Assembly (NCBI RefSeq): GCF_041320665.1
Contig: NZ_CP166730.1
Coordinates: 2,542,001-2,606,000, forward strand
Length of the DNA stretch: 64,000 nucleotides
Source: Comamonas sp. GB3 AK4-5
Lineage (GTDB): Bacteria > Pseudomonadota > Gammaproteobacteria > Burkholderiales > Burkholderiaceae_C
Direction: 5' to 3'
Part shown: positions 25,054-35,245 of the stretch, piece by piece
Numbering within the stretch: position 1 is the stretch's first letter
How the letters are laid out: each line of letters begins with the position of its first letter
Made by a program: the position numbers and the translations under genes
Notes under the pieces: generated by a model
The model's database searches: none
What the model was told of the DNA's origin: nothing
The model's input: only the letters and a program-made list of their open reading frames with translations

Positions 25054-26385
25054 ATGTCGAATGCGCTGAACAAACAACTGAGCCGCGAACAACAAATCGC
25101 CGCCCTGGAAAAAGACTGGGCCACCAACCCCCGCTGGAAGGGCATCAAGCGCGGCTATTCCGCCGCCGATGTGGTGCGCCTGCGCGGCAGCCTGCAGCCC
25201 GAGTACACGCTGGCCCAGCGCGGTGCACAAGTGCTGTGGGAAAAAATCAATGGCACTTCCAAGAAGGGCTATGTGAACGCCTTCGGCGCCATCTCTGCAG
25301 GCCAGGCCATGCAGCAGGCCAAGGCCGGTCTGGAGGCCGTGTACCTGTCCGGCTGGCAAGTCGCCGCCGACGGCAACACCTCCGAAACCATGTACCCCGA
25401 CCAGTCGCTGTACGCCTACGACTCGGTGCCCACCATGGTGCGCCGCATCAACAACACCTTCAAGCGCGCTGACGAAATCCAGTGGGGCAAGGGCATCAAC
25501 CCAGGCGACAAGGAATTCATCGACTACTTCCTGCCCATCGTGGCCGATGCCGAAGCCGGTTTCGGTGGCGTGCTGAACGCCTTCGAGCTGATGAAGAACA
25601 TGATCCAGGCAGGCGCTGCCGGCGTGCACTTCGAAGACCAGCTGGCCGCCGTGAAGAAATGCGGCCACATGGGTGGCAAGGTGCTGGTGCCCACCCGTGA
25701 AGCCTGCGAAAAGCTGATCGCTGCCCGCTTTGCGGCCGACGTGATGGGCGTGCCCACCATCGTGCTGGCCCGCACCGATGCCGAAGCCGCCAACCTGATC
25801 ACCAGCAACCACGACGCCAACGACCAGGCTTTCCTGACCGGCGAGCGCACCCAGGAAGGCTTCTACCGCGTCAAGAACGGCCTGGAGCAATCCATCAGCC
25901 GTGGCGTGGCCTACGCTCCCTACGCCGACCTGGTGTGGTGCGAAACCGGCGTGCCCGACATCGGCTTTGCCCGTGAGTTCGCCCAGGCCGTGCACGCTGC
26001 CTGCCCTGGCAAGCTGCTCTCGTACAACTGCTCGCCTTCCTTCAACTGGAAGAAAAACCTCAACGACAGCCAGATCGCATCCTTCCAGGACGACCTGTCT
26101 GCACTGGGCTACAAGTTCCAGTTCATCACCCTGGCTGGCATCCACAGCAACTGGTACAACACCTTCAAGTTCGCCCACGAATACGCTCGCGGCGAGGGCA
26201 TGAAGCACTACGTGGAAATGGTGCAGGAACCCGAGTTCGCCGCACGCGAAAAGGGCTACACCTTTGTGTCCCACCAGCAGGAAGTGGGCGCAGGTTACTT
26301 CGACGACGTGACCACCGTGATCCAAGGCGGCTCGTCCAGCGTCAAGGCCCTGGCTGGCTCCACCGAAGAGGAGCAATTCCACTGA
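25054..26385 (+). CDS. aceA: Isocitrate lyase
   Basis: 443 residues with the isocitrate lyase signature KKCGHMGGK and the substrate-binding stretches YLSGWQVAADGN, VADAEAGFGG, ARTDAEAA and NCSPSFNW. The enzyme splits isocitrate into glyoxylate and succinate for growth on acetate and fatty acids. AAGGAG (25042-25047) supports ATG 25054. No malate synthase gene is adjacent. Palindromes in the AT-rich upstream region suggest specific regulation. Confidence 0.97.
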   Translation: MSNALNKQLSREQQIAALEKDWATNPRWKGIKRGYSAADVVRLRGSLQPEYTLAQRGAQVLWEKINGTSKKGYVNAFGAISAGQAMQQAKAGLEAVYLSGWQVAADGNTSETMYPDQSLYAYDSVPTMVRRINNTFKRADEIQWGKGINPGDKEFIDYFLPIVADAEAGFGGVLNAFELMKNMIQAGAAGVHFEDQLAAVKKCGHMGGKVLVPTREACEKLIAARFAADVMGVPTIVLARTDAEAANLITSNHDANDQAFLTGERTQEGFYRVKNGLEQSISRGVAYAPYADLVWCETGVPDIGFAREFAQAVHAACPGKLLSYNCSPSFNWKKNLNDSQIASFQDDLSALGYKFQFITLAGIHSNWYNTFKFAHEYARGEGMKHYVEMVQEPEFAAREKGYTFVSHQQEVGAGYFDDVTTVIQGGSSSVKALAGSTEEEQFH

Positions 26386-26493
26386 TCTGCACCGCGCTAC
26401 TGCATCACTGACATGGCGCAGTAGAACGGAGACTGATGCTTGTTGTCTGGGGCCTGTGCGGCGGGGACGAGACTGCTGCCAGGAACCCATTTC

Positions 26494-26524
26494 AGCCCGG
26501 AGCTTTGCGGCTTCGGGCTTTTTT
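26494..26524 (+). terminator. Intrinsic terminator after aceA
   Basis: AGCCCG (26494-26499) pairs with CGGGCT (26514-26519), followed by a T tract to 26524. It separates aceA from the thrS leader. Confidence 0.75.
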
Positions 26525-26588
26525 GTGCTTTCGGCGTTAAAATGGCGCCCAAGATTCACCAACAAGAGCGAGAAAGGCAGTGCTGGTT

Positions 26589-26630
26589 ATGACACCGCGA
26601 ACTACTACCACGAGGTACTTCAGCCGCTAA
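26589..26630 (+). CDS. thrS leader peptide, threonine-rich
   Basis: A 13-codon frame upstream of thrS reads MTPRTTTTRYFSR and stops at TAA 26628-26630. Five of thirteen residues are Thr, four of them consecutive (codons ACT ACT ACC ACG, 26601-26612), far above chance. GAGAAAGG about 12 bases upstream is a possible, loosely spaced ribosome site. It is followed by alternative hairpins and an intrinsic terminator, so it most likely senses charged tRNA-Thr by ribosome stalling and controls the thrS operon. This type of gene is too short for routine gene finding. Confidence 0.75.
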   Translation: MTPRTTTTRYFSR

Positions 26631-26714
26631 GCGGCTGGCGGTTCGCGCCTGCACGAGAAGCTGTCCCAGACCCTTTCTCCATCCCTCAAAGCGCGGCCCA
26701 GTTCCGCGCTTTTT
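26596..26714 (+). promoter_or_regulatory. Transcription attenuator of the thrS operon
   Basis: Four pairing segments are visible. Segment 1, CGCGAAC (26596-26602), overlaps the first Thr codons and pairs with segment 2, GTTCGCG (26641-26647). Segment 2 (CTGG 26635-26638 plus CGCGC 26644-26648) can instead pair with segment 3 (GCGCG 26691-26695 plus CCAG 26698-26701). Segment 3 otherwise pairs with segment 4 (CCGCGC 26704-26709) to form a terminator stem (AAAGCGCGG and CCGCGCTTT) with a T run. A ribosome stalled on Thr codons would mask segment 1 and free 2 to pair with 3, allowing read-through into thrS. A further perfect hairpin, AGCCGCTAAGCGGCT, spans the leader stop codon. Confidence 0.72.
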
Positions 26715-26775
26715 GCTTTTCAGATGAGGCATCGGCCGCGGCCCCGTATCCCACATTAGGTTTCCAAGGATTTCC

Positions 26776-28695
26776 ATGCTCAAGATTACGCTCCCCGACG
26801 GCTCGCAACGCGAATTCGACGGTCCGGTCACTGTCATGCAGGTGGCTCAGTCCATCGGCGCCGGCCTGGCCAAGAACACGGTTGCCGGCCGCGTCAATGG
26901 CCGTCTGGTCGACGCCTGCGATCTGATCAGCGAAGACGCCAAGCTGCAGATCATCACGCCCAAGGACCAAGATGGCGTAGAGATCATCCGCCACTCCACA
27001 GCCCACCTGGTCGGCCACGCCGTCAAGCAGCTGTATCCCACGGCCAAGATGGTGATCGGCCCGGTGATCGAAGAGGGCTTTTACTACGACATCTCCTACG
27101 AGCGTCCCTTCACGCCCGAAGACATGGCCGCCATCGAGGCGCGCATGAAGGAATTGATCGCCCAGGATTACGACGTGATCAAGAAGATGACGCCACGCGC
27201 CGAAGTCCTCCAGGTCTTCAAAGACCGTGGCGAGGACTACAAGCTGCGCCTGGTCGAAGACATGCCCAATGAAAAAGCCATGGGCCTGTACTACCACCAG
27301 GAATATGTGGACATGTGCCGTGGCCCCCACGTGCCCAATACGCGCTTTCTGAAGGTCTTCAAACTGACCAAGCTGGCCGGCGCCTACTGGCGTGGCGATG
27401 CCAAGAACGAGCAACTGCAGCGCGTTTACGGCACGGCCTGGGCCGACAAGAAAGACCTGCAGGCCTACATCACGCGCATTGAAGAAGCCGAAAAGCGCGA
27501 CCACCGTCGCCTGGGCCGTGAGCTGGACCTGTTCCACATCGATGAATGCTCGCCCGGCACGGTGTTCTGGCACCCCAAGGGCTGGCGTGTATGGCAGGAG
27601 GTGGAGCAGTACATGCGCCGCGTCTACCGCGACAACGGCTACGAAGAAGTCAAGGGCCCGCAGATTCTGGACAAGACGCTGTGGGAGAAGACGGGCCACT
27701 GGGACAAGTACCGCGACAACATGTTCATCACGGAGTCGGAAAAGCGTGACTACGCCTTGAAACCCATGAACTGCCCGGGCCACATCCTGATCTTCAAGCA
27801 GGGCATCAAGAGCTACCGCGACCTGCCGCTGCGCTATGGCGAATTTGGCCAATGCCACCGCAACGAACCCACGGGCGGTCTGCACGGCATCATGCGCGTG
27901 CGCGGTTTCACGCAGGACGATGGCCATGTGTTCTGTACGGAAGATCAGGTCCAAAAGGAAGTGCTCGACTTCACGCAGCTGCTGCAAAAGGTCTATGCCG
28001 ACTTCGGTTTCACCGACATCATCTACAAGGTTGCCACGCGCCCTGAAGCACGCATCGGCTCGGATGAAGTCTGGGACAAGGCGGAAAAAGCCCTGTTCGA
28101 CTCGCTGAAGGCCTCGGGCTGCGACTACCAGGTCTCCGTGGGCGATGGCGCTTTCTACGGCCCCAAGATCGAGTACACGCTCAAGGACGCCCTGGGTCGC
28201 CAGTGGCAGTGCGGCACCATCCAGGTGGACTTTTCCATGCCCGAGCGCCTGGATGCGGAGTATGTGGGCGAGGACGGCAACCGCCACCGCCCCGTGATGC
28301 TGCACCGTGCCATCGTCGGTTCGCTGGAGCGTTTCATCGGCATTTTGATCGAGCAATTTGCCGGCGCGCTGCCAGTCTGGCTGGCTCCGGAGCAGGTGAC
28401 GGTGCTCAATATCACCGACGCACAGGCCGACTATGTGCAAGAAGTTGTGGCAAAGCTGCAAAAAGCGCTGCCGAATCAAAGTCTTAAGATAGCGGCTGAT
28501 CTGCGCAATGAAAAGATCACGTATAAAATACGCGAGCATTCGTTGCAAAAGCTGCCCTACATCCTCGTCGCCGGCGACAAGGAGAAGGCAGCCGGAGCCG
28601 TCGCAGTGCGCGCCCGGGGCAACAAAGACCTCGGTGTGATGTCCGTCGATGCCTTCATCGAGTTGCTCAGCAAGGACATCGCTTCTAAAGCGTAA
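26776..28695 (+). CDS. thrS: Threonyl-tRNA synthetase
   Basis: 639 residues, full length. Domain order: TGS (1-60), editing domain with [16 protein letters not shown] (the HxxxH of the editing site), class II catalytic core with motif 2 [20 protein letters not shown] and motif 3 [14 protein letters not shown], and C-terminal anticodon-binding domain. It charges tRNA-Thr. It is the first gene of thrS-infC-rpmI-rplT-pheS-pheT-ihfA, the standard order, and is preceded by a Thr attenuator. Confidence 0.98.
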
Positions 28696-28771
28696 TCAAC
28701 ATGGTTTTTTGCTTTGGACTGCGTGAATTGCGCGCAAGCAGCTACGCTTTTCGTAGCGTTTTGAAATTAGG

Positions 28772-29386
28772 GTGAAAGCCATAGCTACTGAATTCCGTGA
28801 TCGTCGCCACCGCGAGGAACGCAAGCACCGTCTTAACCGTGAAATCCAGGCCACCGAAGTGCGCCTGACCGGTCCTGAAAACGAACCCATCGGCGTCGTC
28901 AGCATCGCAGAAGCCCTGCGCATGGCTGGTGACATGGATGTGGATCTGGTGGAAATTGCCTCCACGGCGAACCCGCCTGTCTGCCGCTTGGTGGACTACG
29001 GCAAGTTCAAATACCAGGAACAAAAGCGCGCTGCCGAAGCCAAGGCCAAGCAGACCGTGATCGAAATCAAGGAAGTCAAATTCCGTCCTGGTACCGATGA
29101 TGGTGACTACAACATCAAGTTGCGCAACATCCGCCGCTTCCTGGCCGAGGGCGACAAGTGCAAGATCACGCTGCGTTTCCGTGGCCGTGAAATCACGCAC
29201 CAACAGCTGGGCCTGGATCTGCTGAATCGTCTGCGTGACGACCTGGCAGACACCATTCAGGTGGAGCAATTCCCCAAGCTGGAAGGCCGCCAGATGATCA
29301 TGATGATCGCCCCGGCGCGCAAAAAGCCTGTGGGAGCCACTGCCAAACCCGCTACTGCGGAAGAGGCTGGCAACACCGCCGCGTAA
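28772..29386 (+). CDS. infC: Translation initiation factor IF-3
   Basis: About 204 residues: N-terminal domain ([22 protein letters not shown]), flexible Lys-rich linker, and C-terminal domain with [23 protein letters not shown] and [14 protein letters not shown]. The usual GTG call is 28772, but a GGTGA ribosome site (28771-28775) overlaps that codon and stands 5 bases before an ATA at 28781, which would give [10 protein letters not shown]. infC is known for rare start codons (AUU, AUC, AUA) that IF-3 uses to control itself, so ATA 28781 may be the true start. A small hairpin, GCTACG/CGTAGC, lies at 28741-28757. Confidence 0.95.
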
Positions 29387-29420
29387 AAACGTCGCAGCCT
29401 GCCTGCGATCGCGTTAGAAT

Positions 29421-29454
29421 ATGCAGTTGGCGTAAATTGCTGCGCCAACTGCAT
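29421..29454 (+). promoter_or_regulatory. Strong hairpin in the infC-rpmI gap, candidate L20 or L35 control element
   Basis: ATGCAGTTGGCG (29421-29432) and CGCCAACTGCAT (29443-29454) form a perfect 12-bp stem with a 10-base loop, in a 244-base gap. The tail CGCGTTTTG is a poor terminator. In many bacteria the rpmI-rplT leader carries an RNA structure bound by L20, so an autoregulatory site is plausible; no match to a known leader family was established. Confidence 0.45.
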
Positions 29455-29630
29455 CGCGTTTTGTGGATTGGCCTTTCTTGCAACAAGCAAGGCTGCATAC
29501 GTAAAACGTGGCTTTGGTACTGAACGGCTTTGGCTGCTCAGCACCAAAGTACAAAAGTGCCTCGGAGCGCCGACAAGTGCTGTGCATGGTTGCGCAGCCG
29601 CCTCGCGAGCACAAATAAAGGAGCATTTAC

Positions 29631-29834
29631 ATGCCCAAAATGAAGACCAAGAGCAGCGCGAAGAAGCGTTTTCGCGTTCGTCCTGGTGGTACCGTCAAGC
29701 GCGGTCAAGCCTTCAAGCGTCACATCTTGACCAAGAAGACCACGAAGAACAAGCGCCACCTGCGTGGCACTGTCAGCGTGCATGAAGGCGACATGGGCTC
29801 CATCGCAAAGATGCTGCCTGGCGCTGGTCTGTAA
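29631..29834 (+). CDS. rpmI: 50S ribosomal protein L35
   Basis: 67 residues, strongly basic, [20 protein letters not shown], typical L35. AAAGGAG lies 7 bases before ATG 29631. It is followed by rplT after 26 bases. A 244-base leader with a strong hairpin precedes it. Confidence 0.97.
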
Positions 29835-29860
29835 TTCACTGACGAACAAGGAGAAAATAC

Positions 29861-30220
29861 ATGCCTCGCGTCAAACGTGGTGTAACGGCCCGTGCCCGTC
29901 ACAAAAAAGTTCTGACCCTTGCCAAGGGTTTCCGCGGTCGTCGCGGCAATGTCTTCCGCGTCGCCAAGCAGGCGGTGATGAAGGCAGGCCAATACGCCTA
30001 CCGTGACCGCCGCAACAAGAAGCGCGTGTTCCGCCAACTGTGGATCGCCCGTATCAACGCCGCTGCACGCGAACTGGGTCTGACCTACAGCCAATTCGCC
30101 AACGGCCTGAAGAAGGCTTCCATCGAAATCGACCGCAAGATGCTGGCCGATATCGCGGTGCACGACAAGGCTGCCTTTGGCAGCATCGTGGAACAAGTCA
30201 AGGCCAAGCTGGCTGCTTGA
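29861..30220 (+). CDS. rplT: 50S ribosomal protein L20
   Basis: 119 residues, basic, with [18 protein letters not shown] and the conserved [20 protein letters not shown] region. It binds 23S rRNA early in assembly and represses its own operon in several bacteria. AAGGAG lies 8 bases before the start. A strong intrinsic terminator follows before pheS. Confidence 0.97.
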
Positions 30221-30270
30221 TTCACGATCGGCAGTTGCTGCAGATGTAGTAGCTGCTGACGCACTATCAG

Positions 30271-30311
30271 CAAGGGCTAGGGCTTGAAAAGGCGCTAGCC
30301 CTTGTTTTTTT
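30271..30311 (+). terminator. Strong terminator between rplT and pheS
   Basis: CAAGGGCTAG (30271-30280) and CTAGCCCTTG (30295-30304) form a perfect 10-bp stem followed by seven T residues. No Phe-rich leader peptide was found before it, so it looks like a simple end or partial attenuator, and pheST probably has its own promoter in the 80 bases that follow. Confidence 0.85.
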
Positions 30312-30390
30312 ATCACCGGGTGTTTTTGCTGTTTGCCGCTGTGGCAGCCAGGCTGAGGGCACCAGGTATTGAGGTCGATAAAGAGTCGAT

Positions 30391-31443
30391 ATGAACGAGT
30401 TGGATTCTCTGGTCGAGAGCGCGCAGCAACTGTTTGCGCAGGCCCATACCCCCGCAGATCTGGAAAACGCCAAGGCGCAGTTTCTGGGCAAATCGGGCAA
30501 GATGACCGAGCTCATGAAGGGCATGGCGCAGCTTTCCGTCGAAGAGAAGAAGTCGCGCGGCGCCGCCATCAACGTGGCCAAGCAGGCCATCGAGGCCGCG
30601 CTCACCGCCCGCCGCAAGGCCTTGGCCGATGCCGAGCTCGAGGCCCATCTGAAGGCCGAAGTGCTGGATGTCAGCCTGCCCGGTCGCCGCCGCGGCACCG
30701 GCGGATTGCACCCTGTGTCCCTGACGCTGGAGCGCATCGAGGGCATTTTTGGCTCCATGGGCTTTGATGTGGCCGAAGGCCCCGAGATCGAATCCGACTG
30801 GTTCAACTTCACGGCGCTGAACACGCCGGAAGACCATCCCGCACGCTCCATGCACGACACCTTCTATGTGGAAGGCGGCACGGCGACAGCGCCCAATTTG
30901 CTGCGCACGCACACCAGCCCCATGCAGGTGCGCCACGCCGTGCAGCATGTGAAGAAATACCGCAATCAGCTCGATGCCGGCCAGTCCATGCCCGAGATCC
31001 GCGTGATTGCCCCCGGCCGCACCTACCGTGTGGACTCGGACGCCACTCACTCGCCCATGTTCCACCAGTGCGAAGGCCTGTGGATTGGCGAGAACATCAG
31101 CTTCAAGGACTTGAAGGTGGTCTTCTCCGACTTCTGCAAGACCTTCTTCGAGCAGGACGACCTGGTGCTGCGCTTTCGCCCCAGCTTCTTCCCGTTCACC
31201 GAGCCCTCGGCCGAGATCGACATCCAGTTCCAAAGCGGCCCGCTGGCTGGCAGGTGGCTGGAGATTTCCGGCGCCGGCCAGGTGCACCCCAACGTGGTGC
31301 GCAACATGGGCCTGGACCCCGAGAAATACATAGGCTTTGCCTTTGGCATGGGCCAGGACCGCCTGACCATGCTGCGTTATGGCGTGAACGATTTGCGCCT
31401 GTTCTTCGACGGCGACATCCGTTTTCTGTCGCAATTCCAGTAA
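30391..31443 (+). CDS. pheS: Phenylalanyl-tRNA synthetase alpha subunit
   Basis: 350 residues: N-terminal coiled-coil (1-100) that contacts tRNA, then the class II core with motif 2 [21 protein letters not shown], the Phe pocket [17 protein letters not shown] and motif 3 [17 protein letters not shown]. It forms the alpha2beta2 enzyme with PheT. A 164-base gap separates it from pheT. Confidence 0.98.
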
Positions 31444-31607
31444 TGGAAAAAGTGAGCTATCTGCGCTGATGCACCCAGCCTTTCAAATGGATTTCACATT
31501 GAAATGCTTGCTGCCAAAGCAATGAATGCTCCTTTTATTGAATATCGCATGCCCGGCCGGCTGCAGACCTGCAAGGTGTGCCGGCTTGAACGCCAAAGAG
31601 TCTGACT

Positions 31608-34064
31608 ATGCAATTCCCCGAATCCTGGTTGCGCGAATACTGCAACCCGAAGCTGACCACCCAAGAACTGGCCGACACCTTGACCATGGCCGGCCTGGAG
31701 GTCGAAGAGCTCGACCCCGTGGCACCTCCCTTCACCGGCATCGTGGTTGGTGAAATCAAGGAAGCCGTGCAACACCCCGACGCCGATCGCCTGCGCGTGT
31801 GCCAGGTCGACGTGGGTGGCCCCGAGCTGCTGAACATCGTCTGCGGCGCACCGAATGCGCGCGTGGGCATCCGCATTCCCTGCGCCACCGTGGGCGCCGA
31901 GCTGCCACCCGGTGAGGACGGCAAGCCCTTCAAGATCAAGATCGGCAAGCTGCGCGGCGTGCAAAGCTTTGGCATGCTGTGCTCAGCCAAGGAGCTGGGC
32001 ATTGACGACGATGCCAGCGGCCTGCTGGAACTGCCGGCCGACGCCCCTTTGGGCCAGAGCGTGCGCGAGTACCTGAACCTGGACGACACGCTGCTCACCC
32101 TCAAGCTCACGCCCAATCTGGCGCACTGCCTGTCGGTGTATGGCGTGGCGCGCGAGTTGTCGGCCCTGACCGGCACGCCGCTGAAGGCCTTGTCCTTCCC
32201 CACCGCCGCCGTGGCCACGCAAGACAAGCTGCCCGTGAAGATCGAGGCGCCCGAGCTGTGCGGCCGCTTCTCCGGCCGCATGGTGCGCAACGTCAACACG
32301 CAAGTGAAAACACCCCAGTGGATGCTGGACCGCCTGGCCCGCTGCGGCCAGCGCGGCGTGTCGCCCCTGGTGGACATCTCCAACTACGTGATGTTCGAGC
32401 TGGGCCGCCCCAGCCACATCTTTGACCTGGACAAGATCCACGGCGGCCTTCAAGTCCGCTGGGGCCAGGCGGGCGAGACGCTCAAGCTGCTCAATGGCAA
32501 CACCATCAAGATCGACGACAGCCCGAAAGTGGGCGTGATCGCCGACGACAAGCAGATCGAGTCCCTGGCCGGCATCATGGGTGGCGACGCCACGGCCGTG
32601 TCTGACGACACGAAAAACATCTACATCGAAGCCGCGTTCTGGTTCCCCAAGGCCGTGGCAGGCCGCTCGCGCCACTTCAATTTCGCCACCGACGCCGGCC
32701 ACCGCTTCGAGCGCGGTGTGGACCCCGCGCTCACCGTCGAGCATATCGAGCGCATCACCCAGCTGGTACTGGAGATCTGCGGCACGCCTGAGACACAGGT
32801 CGGCGCCATGGACGACCACCAGCCCAATATGCCCGCGGCCAAGACCGTGCAACTGCGCGTGGCACGCGCCGCCAAGGTCATCGGCATGGCCGTGAGCCAG
32901 CAGCAATGCCTGGATGCCCTGAATGGCCTGGGTCTGCCCGCCACCGTGGCCAGCGAAGGCGTGATCAGCGTGACCGCGCCCAGCTTCCGCTTCGACATCA
33001 ATCTGGAAGAAGACCTGATCGAAGAAGTGGCCCGCATGGTCGGCTACGAGAACCTGCCCACCACCAAGCCGCTGGCCCCCATCGCGCCCAAGCTGCGCGC
33101 CGAAAACCAGCGCAGCCCCTTTGCCGTGCGCCGTGAGCTGGCCGCACTGGGCTACCAGGAAACCATCAACTTCAGCTTTGTCGAAGAAAAGTGGGAGCAG
33201 GAGCTGGCCGGCAATACCCATGCCATCAAGCTGCTCAACCCCATTGCCAGCCATTTGAGCGTGATGCGCTCCTCGCTGCTGGGTTCGCTGCTACAGGTTT
33301 TGAAGTTCAACGTGGACCGCAAGGCCCAGCGCGTGCGCGTGTTTGAGCTGGGCCGCGTGTTCTTCAAGGATGGCTCCGTGGTCGAGTCCGACACCACCGT
33401 CAAGGGTTTCGATCAGCCCATGCGCGTGGCCGGTCTCGCCTATGGCGCGGCCGAGCAGCTGCAATGGGGCAGGGCAGAGACCAAGGTCGACTTCTACGAC
33501 ATCAAGGGCGATGTGGAGGCCTTGTTGGCCCCGGCAAAACCCCAGTTCGAAGCCGCTGAGCACCCAGCCATGCACCCCGGCCGCTGCGCCCGTGTGCTGC
33601 TGGATGGCCAGGCCATTGGCTTTGTGGGCGAGCTGCACCCCAAGTGGCGCCAGGAATGGGATCTGGCCCAGGCGCCTGTGATGTTCGAGCTGGACCTGAG
33701 CGCCGTGCTGGCCCGCAAGGTGGCGGTGTTTGCCCCCGTGGCCAAGCACCAGGCCGTGGAGCGCGACATTGCCGTGGTGGTCAAGGAGGCTGTGACCCAC
33801 GCCCAGGTCATGGAGGCCATCCAGCAAGGCGTGCAGGGCAGCGTGCTGCGCTCGGCCGTGCTGTTTGACGTGTTCCGCCCCAAGAAGCTCAAGGCCGGCG
33901 AAGAGGCCGCACCCGGAGCGCTGGCGCAAGACGAGAAAAGCCTGGCCGTGCGCCTGACGCTGGGCAGCGAGAATGCTTCGCTGACCGATGCCGAAATCGA
34001 CACCGCCATGCAGGCCGCCATTGCCGCATTGGTGGAGCGCGTGGCCGCACGCCTGCGCGGTTGA
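31608..34064 (+). CDS. pheT: Phenylalanyl-tRNA synthetase beta subunit
   Basis: 818 residues, full length: N-terminal EMAP-like tRNA-binding domain (about 40-150), B3/B4 editing domain, B5 (with SFRFDINLEEDLIEEVARMVGYENLP), the inactive class II-like core, and C-terminal ferredoxin-fold anticodon-binding domain (VAKHQAVERDIAVVV). It removes mischarged Tyr and completes the PheRS tetramer. It is followed by ihfA after 27 bases. Confidence 0.98.
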   Translation: MQFPESWLREYCNPKLTTQELADTLTMAGLEVEELDPVAPPFTGIVVGEIKEAVQHPDADRLRVCQVDVGGPELLNIVCGAPNARVGIRIPCATVGAELPPGEDGKPFKIKIGKLRGVQSFGMLCSAKELGIDDDASGLLELPADAPLGQSVREYLNLDDTLLTLKLTPNLAHCLSVYGVARELSALTGTPLKALSFPTAAVATQDKLPVKIEAPELCGRFSGRMVRNVNTQVKTPQWMLDRLARCGQRGVSPLVDISNYVMFELGRPSHIFDLDKIHGGLQVRWGQAGETLKLLNGNTIKIDDSPKVGVIADDKQIESLAGIMGGDATAVSDDTKNIYIEAAFWFPKAVAGRSRHFNFATDAGHRFERGVDPALTVEHIERITQLVLEICGTPETQVGAMDDHQPNMPAAKTVQLRVARAAKVIGMAVSQQQCLDALNGLGLPATVASEGVISVTAPSFRFDINLEEDLIEEVARMVGYENLPTTKPLAPIAPKLRAENQRSPFAVRRELAALGYQETINFSFVEEKWEQELAGNTHAIKLLNPIASHLSVMRSSLLGSLLQVLKFNVDRKAQRVRVFELGRVFFKDGSVVESDTTVKGFDQPMRVAGLAYGAAEQLQWGRAETKVDFYDIKGDVEALLAPAKPQFEAAEHPAMHPGRCARVLLDGQAIGFVGELHPKWRQEWDLAQAPVMFELDLSAVLARKVAVFAPVAKHQAVERDIAVVVKEAVTHAQVMEAIQQGVQGSVLRSAVLFDVFRPKKLKAGEEAAPGALAQDEKSLAVRLTLGSENASLTDAEIDTAMQAAIAALVERVAARLRG

Positions 34065-34091
34065 TGCACCGCGCTGCCCAAGGAGCTTGAG

Positions 34092-34448
34092 ATGATCGAA
34101 TTTGCAGAAGACAGTGGCGATGACGCCTCTACCGCCTTGACCAAGGCGCAATTGGCCGAGCTGCTGTTCGATCAGATCGGTTTGAACAAGCGCGAGTCCA
34201 AGGAAATGGTCGATGCCTTCTTCGACCTGATTTCCCGCAATCTGGTGGAGGGCGACGACGTCAAGCTCTCCGGCTTTGGCAACTTCCAGATTCGCACCAA
34301 GGCCCCACGCCCGGGGCGCAATCCGCGCACCGGCGAGCTGATCCCCATCGAGGCGCGCCGCGTGGTCACCTTCCACGCCAGCACCAAGCTCAAGGAGCAG
34401 ATCCAGGGCGCAGAAAGCAAGGACGGCACACCGCCATCGTCGCTGTAA
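34092..34448 (+). CDS. ihfA: Integration host factor alpha subunit
   Basis: 118 residues of the HU/IHF family: [29 protein letters not shown] and the DNA-bending arm [22 protein letters not shown] with the intercalating Pro. The N-terminus is extended by about 14 acidic residues relative to E. coli IHF-alpha, as is common in Burkholderiales. AAGGAG lies upstream of ATG 34092. IHF bends DNA for recombination, replication and transcription. Confidence 0.95.
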
Positions 34449-34545
34449 TGCACCTGCTCTTTGCAAGCGCTCTTGGTCCACTGCACAAGCTGCGGTAGGC
34501 TAGGGCGCTTGTTTTGTTTGGCCCGCGCCTTTGCTTCAACCCTCT

Positions 34546-34983
34546 ATGGCTCCGCTTCCCCCCATCCCTGCCAAGCGTTACTTCACCATCAGCGAAGTGG
34601 CGCTGCTGTGTGACGTCAAACCCCATGTGCTGCGCTATTGGGAGCAGGAGTTTGTGCAGCTGCGGCCCATGAAGCGGCGCGGCAACCGCCGCTACTACCA
34701 GCACCACGAGCTGCTGATGGTGCGCCGCATCCGCAGCCTGCTGTATGACGAGGGCTTCACCATCCAGGGCGCGCGCAACCAACTGCGCAGCCAACTGCGC
34801 AGCCAACCCGGGGAGTCTGCATCGCTTGTGGGCGATGACCTTGCGCCCAATAGCGTGCTGGCCCAGCCCCCGCAAGCACTGGTGTGGGAAGCCATCCCGC
34901 TTCCCGATGCGCAGGGCAACACCGTCACATCGGCACAGCTGCGGCAGGAACTTTTGCAGATTCGTTCACTGCTCTCGCTTTAG
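34546..34983 (+). CDS. MerR-family transcriptional regulator
   Basis: 145 residues: N-terminal winged helix-turn-helix (about 10-80, [26 protein letters not shown] and [24 protein letters not shown]) and a short C-terminal part without metal-binding Cys. This is the MerR-like protein that regularly sits between ihfA and tRNA-Pro in Burkholderiales; its target is not known. A duplicated LRSQLRSQ stretch marks the linker. ATG 34546 is preferred over the upstream TTG 34531. Confidence 0.85.
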
Positions 34984-35013
34984 GCCAAAAAATGTGTATA
35001 TAATTCAAGTCTT

Positions 35014-35090
35014 CGGAATGTAGCGCAGCCTGGTAGCGCACTTGCATGGGGTGCAAGGGGTCGCGAGTTCGAATCCCGCCATTCCGACCA
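35014..35090 (+). tRNA. tRNA-Pro (anticodon GGG)
   Basis: A complete 77-base cloverleaf with CCA-like end ACCA: acceptor CGGAATG/CATTCCG, D-arm with AGCGCAGCCTGGTAGCGC, anticodon stem CTTGC/GCAAG with loop ATGGGGT (anticodon GGG, reading CCC and CCT), and T-arm with GTTCGAATC. TATAAT at 34999-35004 is a good -10 box 9 bases upstream. Confidence 0.97.
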
Positions 35091-35097
35091 TATAGAT

Positions 35098-35130
35098 AAG
35101 GCTCCTAACTGCAAAGTTAGGGGCCTTTTT
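35098..35130 (+). terminator. Terminator after tRNA-Pro
   Basis: AAGGCTCCTAAC (35098-35109) pairs with GTTAGGGGCCTT (35116-35127), with one wobble pair, followed by a T run. Confidence 0.85.
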
Positions 35131-35138
35131 CTTTTGTG

Positions 35139-35245
35139 AGCTGACGCTCCCCCCTGAGACGCTTCGCGTCTTCCCCCTCTCTAGGCGCTACGCGCCGGAG
35201 GGGGAGGGCACTGACGCTTTGCGCAGTGCCCCTGACGTTGGGGCA
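35139..35245. repeat. Dispersed GC-rich palindromic repeat, copy 2
   Basis: Contains CCCCCCTGAGACGC, the hairpin GACGCTTCGCGTC, TTCCCCCTCT, then GGCGCTACGCGCC and GGAGGGGGAGG, and ends with two short palindromes (GGGCACTGACG...CAGTGCCC). It shares its modules with the copies near 1194 and 61346. Confidence 0.55.

Follow-up and report, generated by a model that had tools for sequence, protein, structure and literature searches.

A putative threonine-codon attenuator before thrS in Comamonas and its relatives, with a near-invariant leader start

How is thrS controlled in Comamonas sp. GB3 AK4-5? In E. coli, the matched text of PMC9976931 describes a thrS operator in which threonyl-tRNA synthetase (ThrRS) recognises a tRNA mimic and controls translation. 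The window, i.e. the whole 64,000 nucleotide stretch analysed here, contains an isocitrate lyase gene, a short leader open reading frame (ORF), a terminator-like hairpin and then thrS (26776–28695, TIGR00418), with the leader parts and the genes from thrS to rplT on the + strand. This arrangement had led to the original prediction of a threonine-codon leader-peptide attenuator, acting on thrS and on the translation genes behind it. Here, we compare the leader with those of related genomes to ask which parts of that proposal are retained.

Anatomy of the thrS leader

The leader ORF, MTPRTTTTRYFSR followed by its stop (26589–26630), has 13 codons and is kept in relatives; five of the codons (2, 5, 6, 7 and 8) specify Thr. 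Its likely ribosome-binding site, GAGAAAGG (26570–26577), coincides with a conserved run of purine-rich sequence around −19 to −12. While a strict sigma-70 scan of 26300–35200 returned no promoters, a likely −10 box, TAAAAT, can be placed by sequence at 26538–26543, and 74 of 91 family sequences have a TA[ACG]AAT box 25–90 nt ahead of the leader. As far as sequence can tell, transcription would thus begin before the leader and not downstream of 26630.

Each of the segments proposed for the three mutually exclusive pairings is present at the positions originally given, and RNAfold predicts the helices. Segment 1, CGCGAAC (26596–26602), stands opposite GTTCGCG (26641–26647) of segment 2 (26635–26648), together with an inner helix, TCAGCCGC / GCGGCTGG (26620–26638), that has the stop codon TAA as its loop. 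The alternative, antiterminator pairing joins segment 2 to segment 3, by TCGCGC (26643–26648) with GCGCGG (26691–26696) and by GG (26640–26641) with CC (26698–26699). Segments 3 and 4 form an intrinsic terminator between leader and thrS (26688–26714), with arms AAAGCGCGG (26688–26696) and CCGCGCTTT (26704–26712) and T at 26710–26714, 60 nt before thrS. Folding of 26585–26648 gives −26.4 kcal/mol (z −3.33) and folding of the terminator −12.9 kcal/mol (z −3.22), while the antiterminator stretch, 26618–26703, does not stand out from its shuffles (z −1.22, with 26 of 200 folding equally well). The whole leader folds as 1:2, and the 2:3 helix forms once the leader start and segment 4 are left out (26618–26703).

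The same plan is found in the E. coli thr, his, trp and leu attenuators, where a short ORF with many codons for the sensed amino acid is combined with alternative pairings and an intrinsic terminator ahead of the first gene; the putative thrS switch differs from them in governing an aminoacyl-tRNA synthetase gene, in its near-invariant 18-nt start and in rare codons at positions 2, 4 and 5. Leader-peptide attenuation of an aminoacyl-tRNA synthetase operon is known from E. coli pheST, with its pheM leader, which senses Phe rather than Thr and is unrelated in sequence. The T-box leaders of Firmicutes thrS genes likewise respond to the charging of tRNA-Thr through a terminator, in their case by binding tRNA directly without a translated leader; no T-box match was found at the Comamonas leader.

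Threonine codons and alternative pairing in relatives

Upstream DNA of thrS was taken from the best 110 of 200 family genomes by ThrS score, a sample biased to near relatives that comprises 30 loci and 80 stretches (three shortened by contig ends). A short ORF starting MTPRT, accompanied by a terminator-like hairpin, occurs in 91 of these 110 genomes, the leaders being 11–27 residues long and comprising 87 distinct peptides. Past codon 5, Thr accounts for 200 of 809 residues in frame (87 distinct peptides), compared with 1.2% and 3.5% in the other two frames, and it is encoded by all four codons (ACC, ACG, ACA and ACT), which shows selection on the amino acid and not on the letters. The signal is weaker in other families (36 of 246 residues past codon 5), where 11 of 29 distinct leaders keep Thr2 and Thr5 only, with no Thr beyond. 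By a permissive scan, a terminator-like hairpin stands behind all 119 leaders.

Codon choice is also distinctive. Codon 2 is ACA in 86 of 87 leaders and codon 5 is ACT in 75 and ACG in 12, and the codons at positions 2, 4 and 5 are rare: in 26 thrS genes ACA, CGA and ACT account for 2.8%, 2.3% and 3.1% of the codons for their respective amino acids. Such codons may sharpen threonine sensing. Rarity is not a rule, however, since the E. coli thr leader, according to the matched text of PMC1183508, has eight ACC codons, a common codon. In two Ralstonia loci the leader start has moved, and MIQAPRTTTASERQ retains PRTTT and CACCGCGAACTAC without Thr2 and GGTTATGA, which points to Thr5 onward as the control codons.

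Both alternative pairings exceed their shuffled controls. With a ribosome on Thr5, the probability of 1:2 pairing, taken as core positions +6 to +16 (the core is described below) with the stop-codon neighbourhood, is 0.556 compared with 0.160 in shuffles (sd of replicate means 0.016), and that of 2:3 pairing, taken as the terminator 5′ arm with the 0–25 nt past the leader stop, is 0.585 compared with 0.203 (sd 0.023), in both cases for 90 of 91 sequences (in one the stop lies too near the terminator) and with significance overstated by these contrasts because the relatives are not independent. The difference is smaller when the terminator 5′ arm may pair with any upstream partner (0.725 and 0.626 in shuffles). 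The partner of the core differs by lineage, and is GTTCGCG in 34 of 91 sequences (group A) and others by eye. In group A the inner helix around the stop codon has 168 of 204 cells paired, with compensatory changes among the 34 sequences, compared with 31–97 in slid copies and a mean of 151 and maximum of 162 when dealt anew (0 of 1000 as high), for columns chosen after viewing the alignment. The best inner helix has 6.1 pairs, compared with 5.4 in shuffles, and RNAalifold of the 34 sequences returned the invariant outer helix only.

Equilibrium folding of the 91 sequences did not make a ribosome-driven switch visible. Upstream partners hold arm 3 at 0.70 in the ribosome-free state, 0.72 when a ribosome sits at Thr5 and 0.57 when it sits at the stop, the Thr5 state exceeding the ribosome-free state in just 59 of 91, and with arm 4 out the terminator wins in all ribosome states (mean 0.82–0.90).

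The Thr codons and stem pairing are thus conserved in the thrS leaders of relatives, as the original prediction had anticipated, and sequence comparison establishes the anatomy and its conservation, shows that Thr codons are under selection and finds more alternative pairing than in shuffles. We consider it very probable that thrS is under a classical ribosome-mediated attenuator sensing charged tRNA-Thr, with infC, rpmI and rplT probably included by read-through; ribosome stalling, read-through and the response to threonine are what we infer from this arrangement. With ample Thr-tRNA, the ribosome would get to the stop codon, in the loop of the inner 1:2 hairpin in the window, and cover segment 2; with segment 2 masked, the 3:4 terminator would form and transcription would stop. 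In a shortage of Thr-tRNA, the ribosome would stall at Thr5–Thr8 and mask segment 1, leaving segment 2 to pair with segment 3, so that the terminator would fail and more ThrRS would be made. This would give relatives of Comamonas, Acidovorax, Cupriavidus, Massilia and Paraburkholderia a testable mechanism of thrS control unlike that of E. coli.

Among the matches listed in the open-licence literature, the text returned holds no description of a thrS leader-peptide attenuator. The matched text of PMC4833913 cites a survey from 2010 (Lopatovskaya, Seliverstov, Lyubetsky, Mol Biol 44:128-139) that covers attenuators in amino-acid and aminoacyl-tRNA operons, and the thrS switch may therefore have been predicted earlier.

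A different short ORF lies upstream of thrS in six Xanthomonadaceae sequences, after a shared ..GTG[CT]GAC|ATG block. It reads MSTTTAHR (in two), MDTTRAHR, MSTTIAPR, MSTINV or MDTGPDQP, a candidate hairpin is found in five of the six by loose scan, and it is possibly an independent Thr leader.

The near-invariant leader start and competing readings

The original prediction did not include a near-invariant core of 18 nt, GGTTATGACACCGCGAAC (26585–26602), which spans −4 to +13 of the leader and has the same letter in 89–91 of 91 family rows at every position. The rows were selected by the peptide MTPRT alone, which left synonymous letters and the GGTT ahead of the ATG free to vary, and near-invariance nevertheless covers both; by comparison, the early codons of thrS itself, behind its ATG, vary at their third positions, with at most 70 of 91 alike. 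The puzzle is that 18 nt are nearly frozen while the rest of the leader drifts freely.

The core also marks thrS leaders at a distance. It has a single match in the window even with up to three mismatches. Among 300 genomes at the order level there are 22 exact matches and 13 with one mismatch, and all 35 sit 113–223 nt before a thrS start. Of 15 places examined that differ from the core by two letters, 5 (of MTPLT type) precede thrS, and the other 10 are without a thrS gene in the nearest 700 nt. Exact cores outside the family occur, for instance, in Massilia, Janthinobacterium, Cupriavidus and Paraburkholderia, and one-letter variants in loci L075, L079 and L103. At the class level, 185 genomes gave two matches at one mismatch or fewer, both from the window's own family, though absence of the core does not imply absence of an attenuator.

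Several readings were considered and rejected. A hairpin of GGU:ACC or GUU:AAC does not fit as the cause of the constancy, as 12 of the 13 order matches with one mismatch carry C at position −4, breaking a G-C pair, with no compensating change by eye. A mimic of an anticodon arm at GGU lacks the stem (by eye), and an upstream ORF that runs into the leader start at ATGA does not keep its frame among the relatives examined (by eye). Base pairing by itself fails to account for the near-invariance of the core.

It is conceivable, if unlikely, that the core itself serves as a recognition site, with ThrRS, another protein or a trans RNA binding GGUUAUGACACCGCGAAC at the leader start and setting leader translation, alone or on top of stalling. 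Near-invariance that takes in untranslated and synonymous letters, though the pairing partner changes between lineages, would fit such a site, as would the restriction of position −4 to G or C in order matches with 0–1 mismatch, where the [G/C]GU at −4 to −2 resembles (by eye) what we take to be Thr anticodons. By eye, however, there is no conserved stem to present an anticodon-like loop, the genome of the window has no reverse-strand match of the core at two mismatches or fewer, which also led us to reject a trans target, and selection for Thr codons already explains tRNA-Thr sensing within the family. Dual control of thrS, by charged tRNA-Thr through stalling and by a second ligand (e.g. ThrRS or a trans RNA) acting through the core at leader initiation, seems to us improbable to a similar degree; if it were true, lineages with Thr2 and Thr5 alone would depend mainly on the second ligand.

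Still less likely is that the leader ORF is incidental and the hairpin a constitutive terminator or stabilising 5′ structure fixing the level of thrS. This idea draws on the family genomes in which the MTPRT leader is missing, 19 of 110 (one of which carries an MKTRT leader), as 17 of them still yield a terminator-like hairpin, but the scan used is loose and reports hairpins in 34 of 110 shuffled upstreams as well. Fifteen of the 17 hairpins are of the GCGCGG..CCGCGC or ACGCGG..CCGCGT kind (by eye). In-frame selection for Thr and properly placed alternative pairing, on the other hand, require a leader that is translated and switches. In six of the leaderless genomes we note a GCGCGG..CCGCGC hairpin 15–25 nt before the thrS start and 17–28 nt after a TA[ACG]AAT box, so that the hairpin seems to outlive the leader.

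Control of the E. coli type, with ThrRS binding tRNA-like arms in the leader and blocking translation, concerns the same gene and is the mode established for E. coli thrS (matched text of PMC9976931) but is very unlikely here, where the feedback would run through a leader ORF and intrinsic terminator, which are the conserved parts, and where Rfam gave no match for 26500–26800 at E up to 10 (at gathering score, the single match in the whole window is a tRNA at 35014). Judged from anatomy and conservation, the element before thrS is very probably a real, widely kept attenuator of an already known kind, with a near-invariant start.

Reach of the switch downstream of thrS

Behind thrS lie infC (28781–29386, TIGR00168, encoding IF3, with a probable ATA start inferred from the sequence), rpmI (29631–29834, TIGR00001) and rplT (29861–30220, TIGR01032), followed by pheS, pheT and ihfA. 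The original prediction extended control to all of these genes, and here it does not hold up well. A strong terminator-like hairpin (30269–30312, −28 kcal/mol, z −5.09, then seven T) separates rplT from pheS, and a hairpin of this type is found in the same gap in 62 of 67 relatives having both genes, including Gammaproteobacteria, the only control for this count being the infC–rpmI gap (10 of 71), with no shuffles. Direct control therefore probably ends at rplT, and inclusion of pheST-ihfA is doubtful. Read-through from the putative switch would probably reach IF3 and the ribosomal proteins L35 and L20, with PheRS or IHF improbable, so threonine supply may be tied to these three products. A Phe leader in the rplT–pheS gap was also considered and rejected, as there is none in the window, and where relatives do have an ORF with at least three Phe (17 of 67), these ORFs do not resemble one another by eye.

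Two further observations concern the neighbouring genes. At the position extrapolated from the probable ATA start of infC (28781–28783), relatives have ATC in 19 cases, ATA in 5, ATT in 5 and various others, this placement being rough. Of nine loci chosen by eye and scanned, seven (L075, L079, L083, L085, L098, L104 and L105) have a tRNA-Val(GAC) gene immediately before thrS, in the same orientation.
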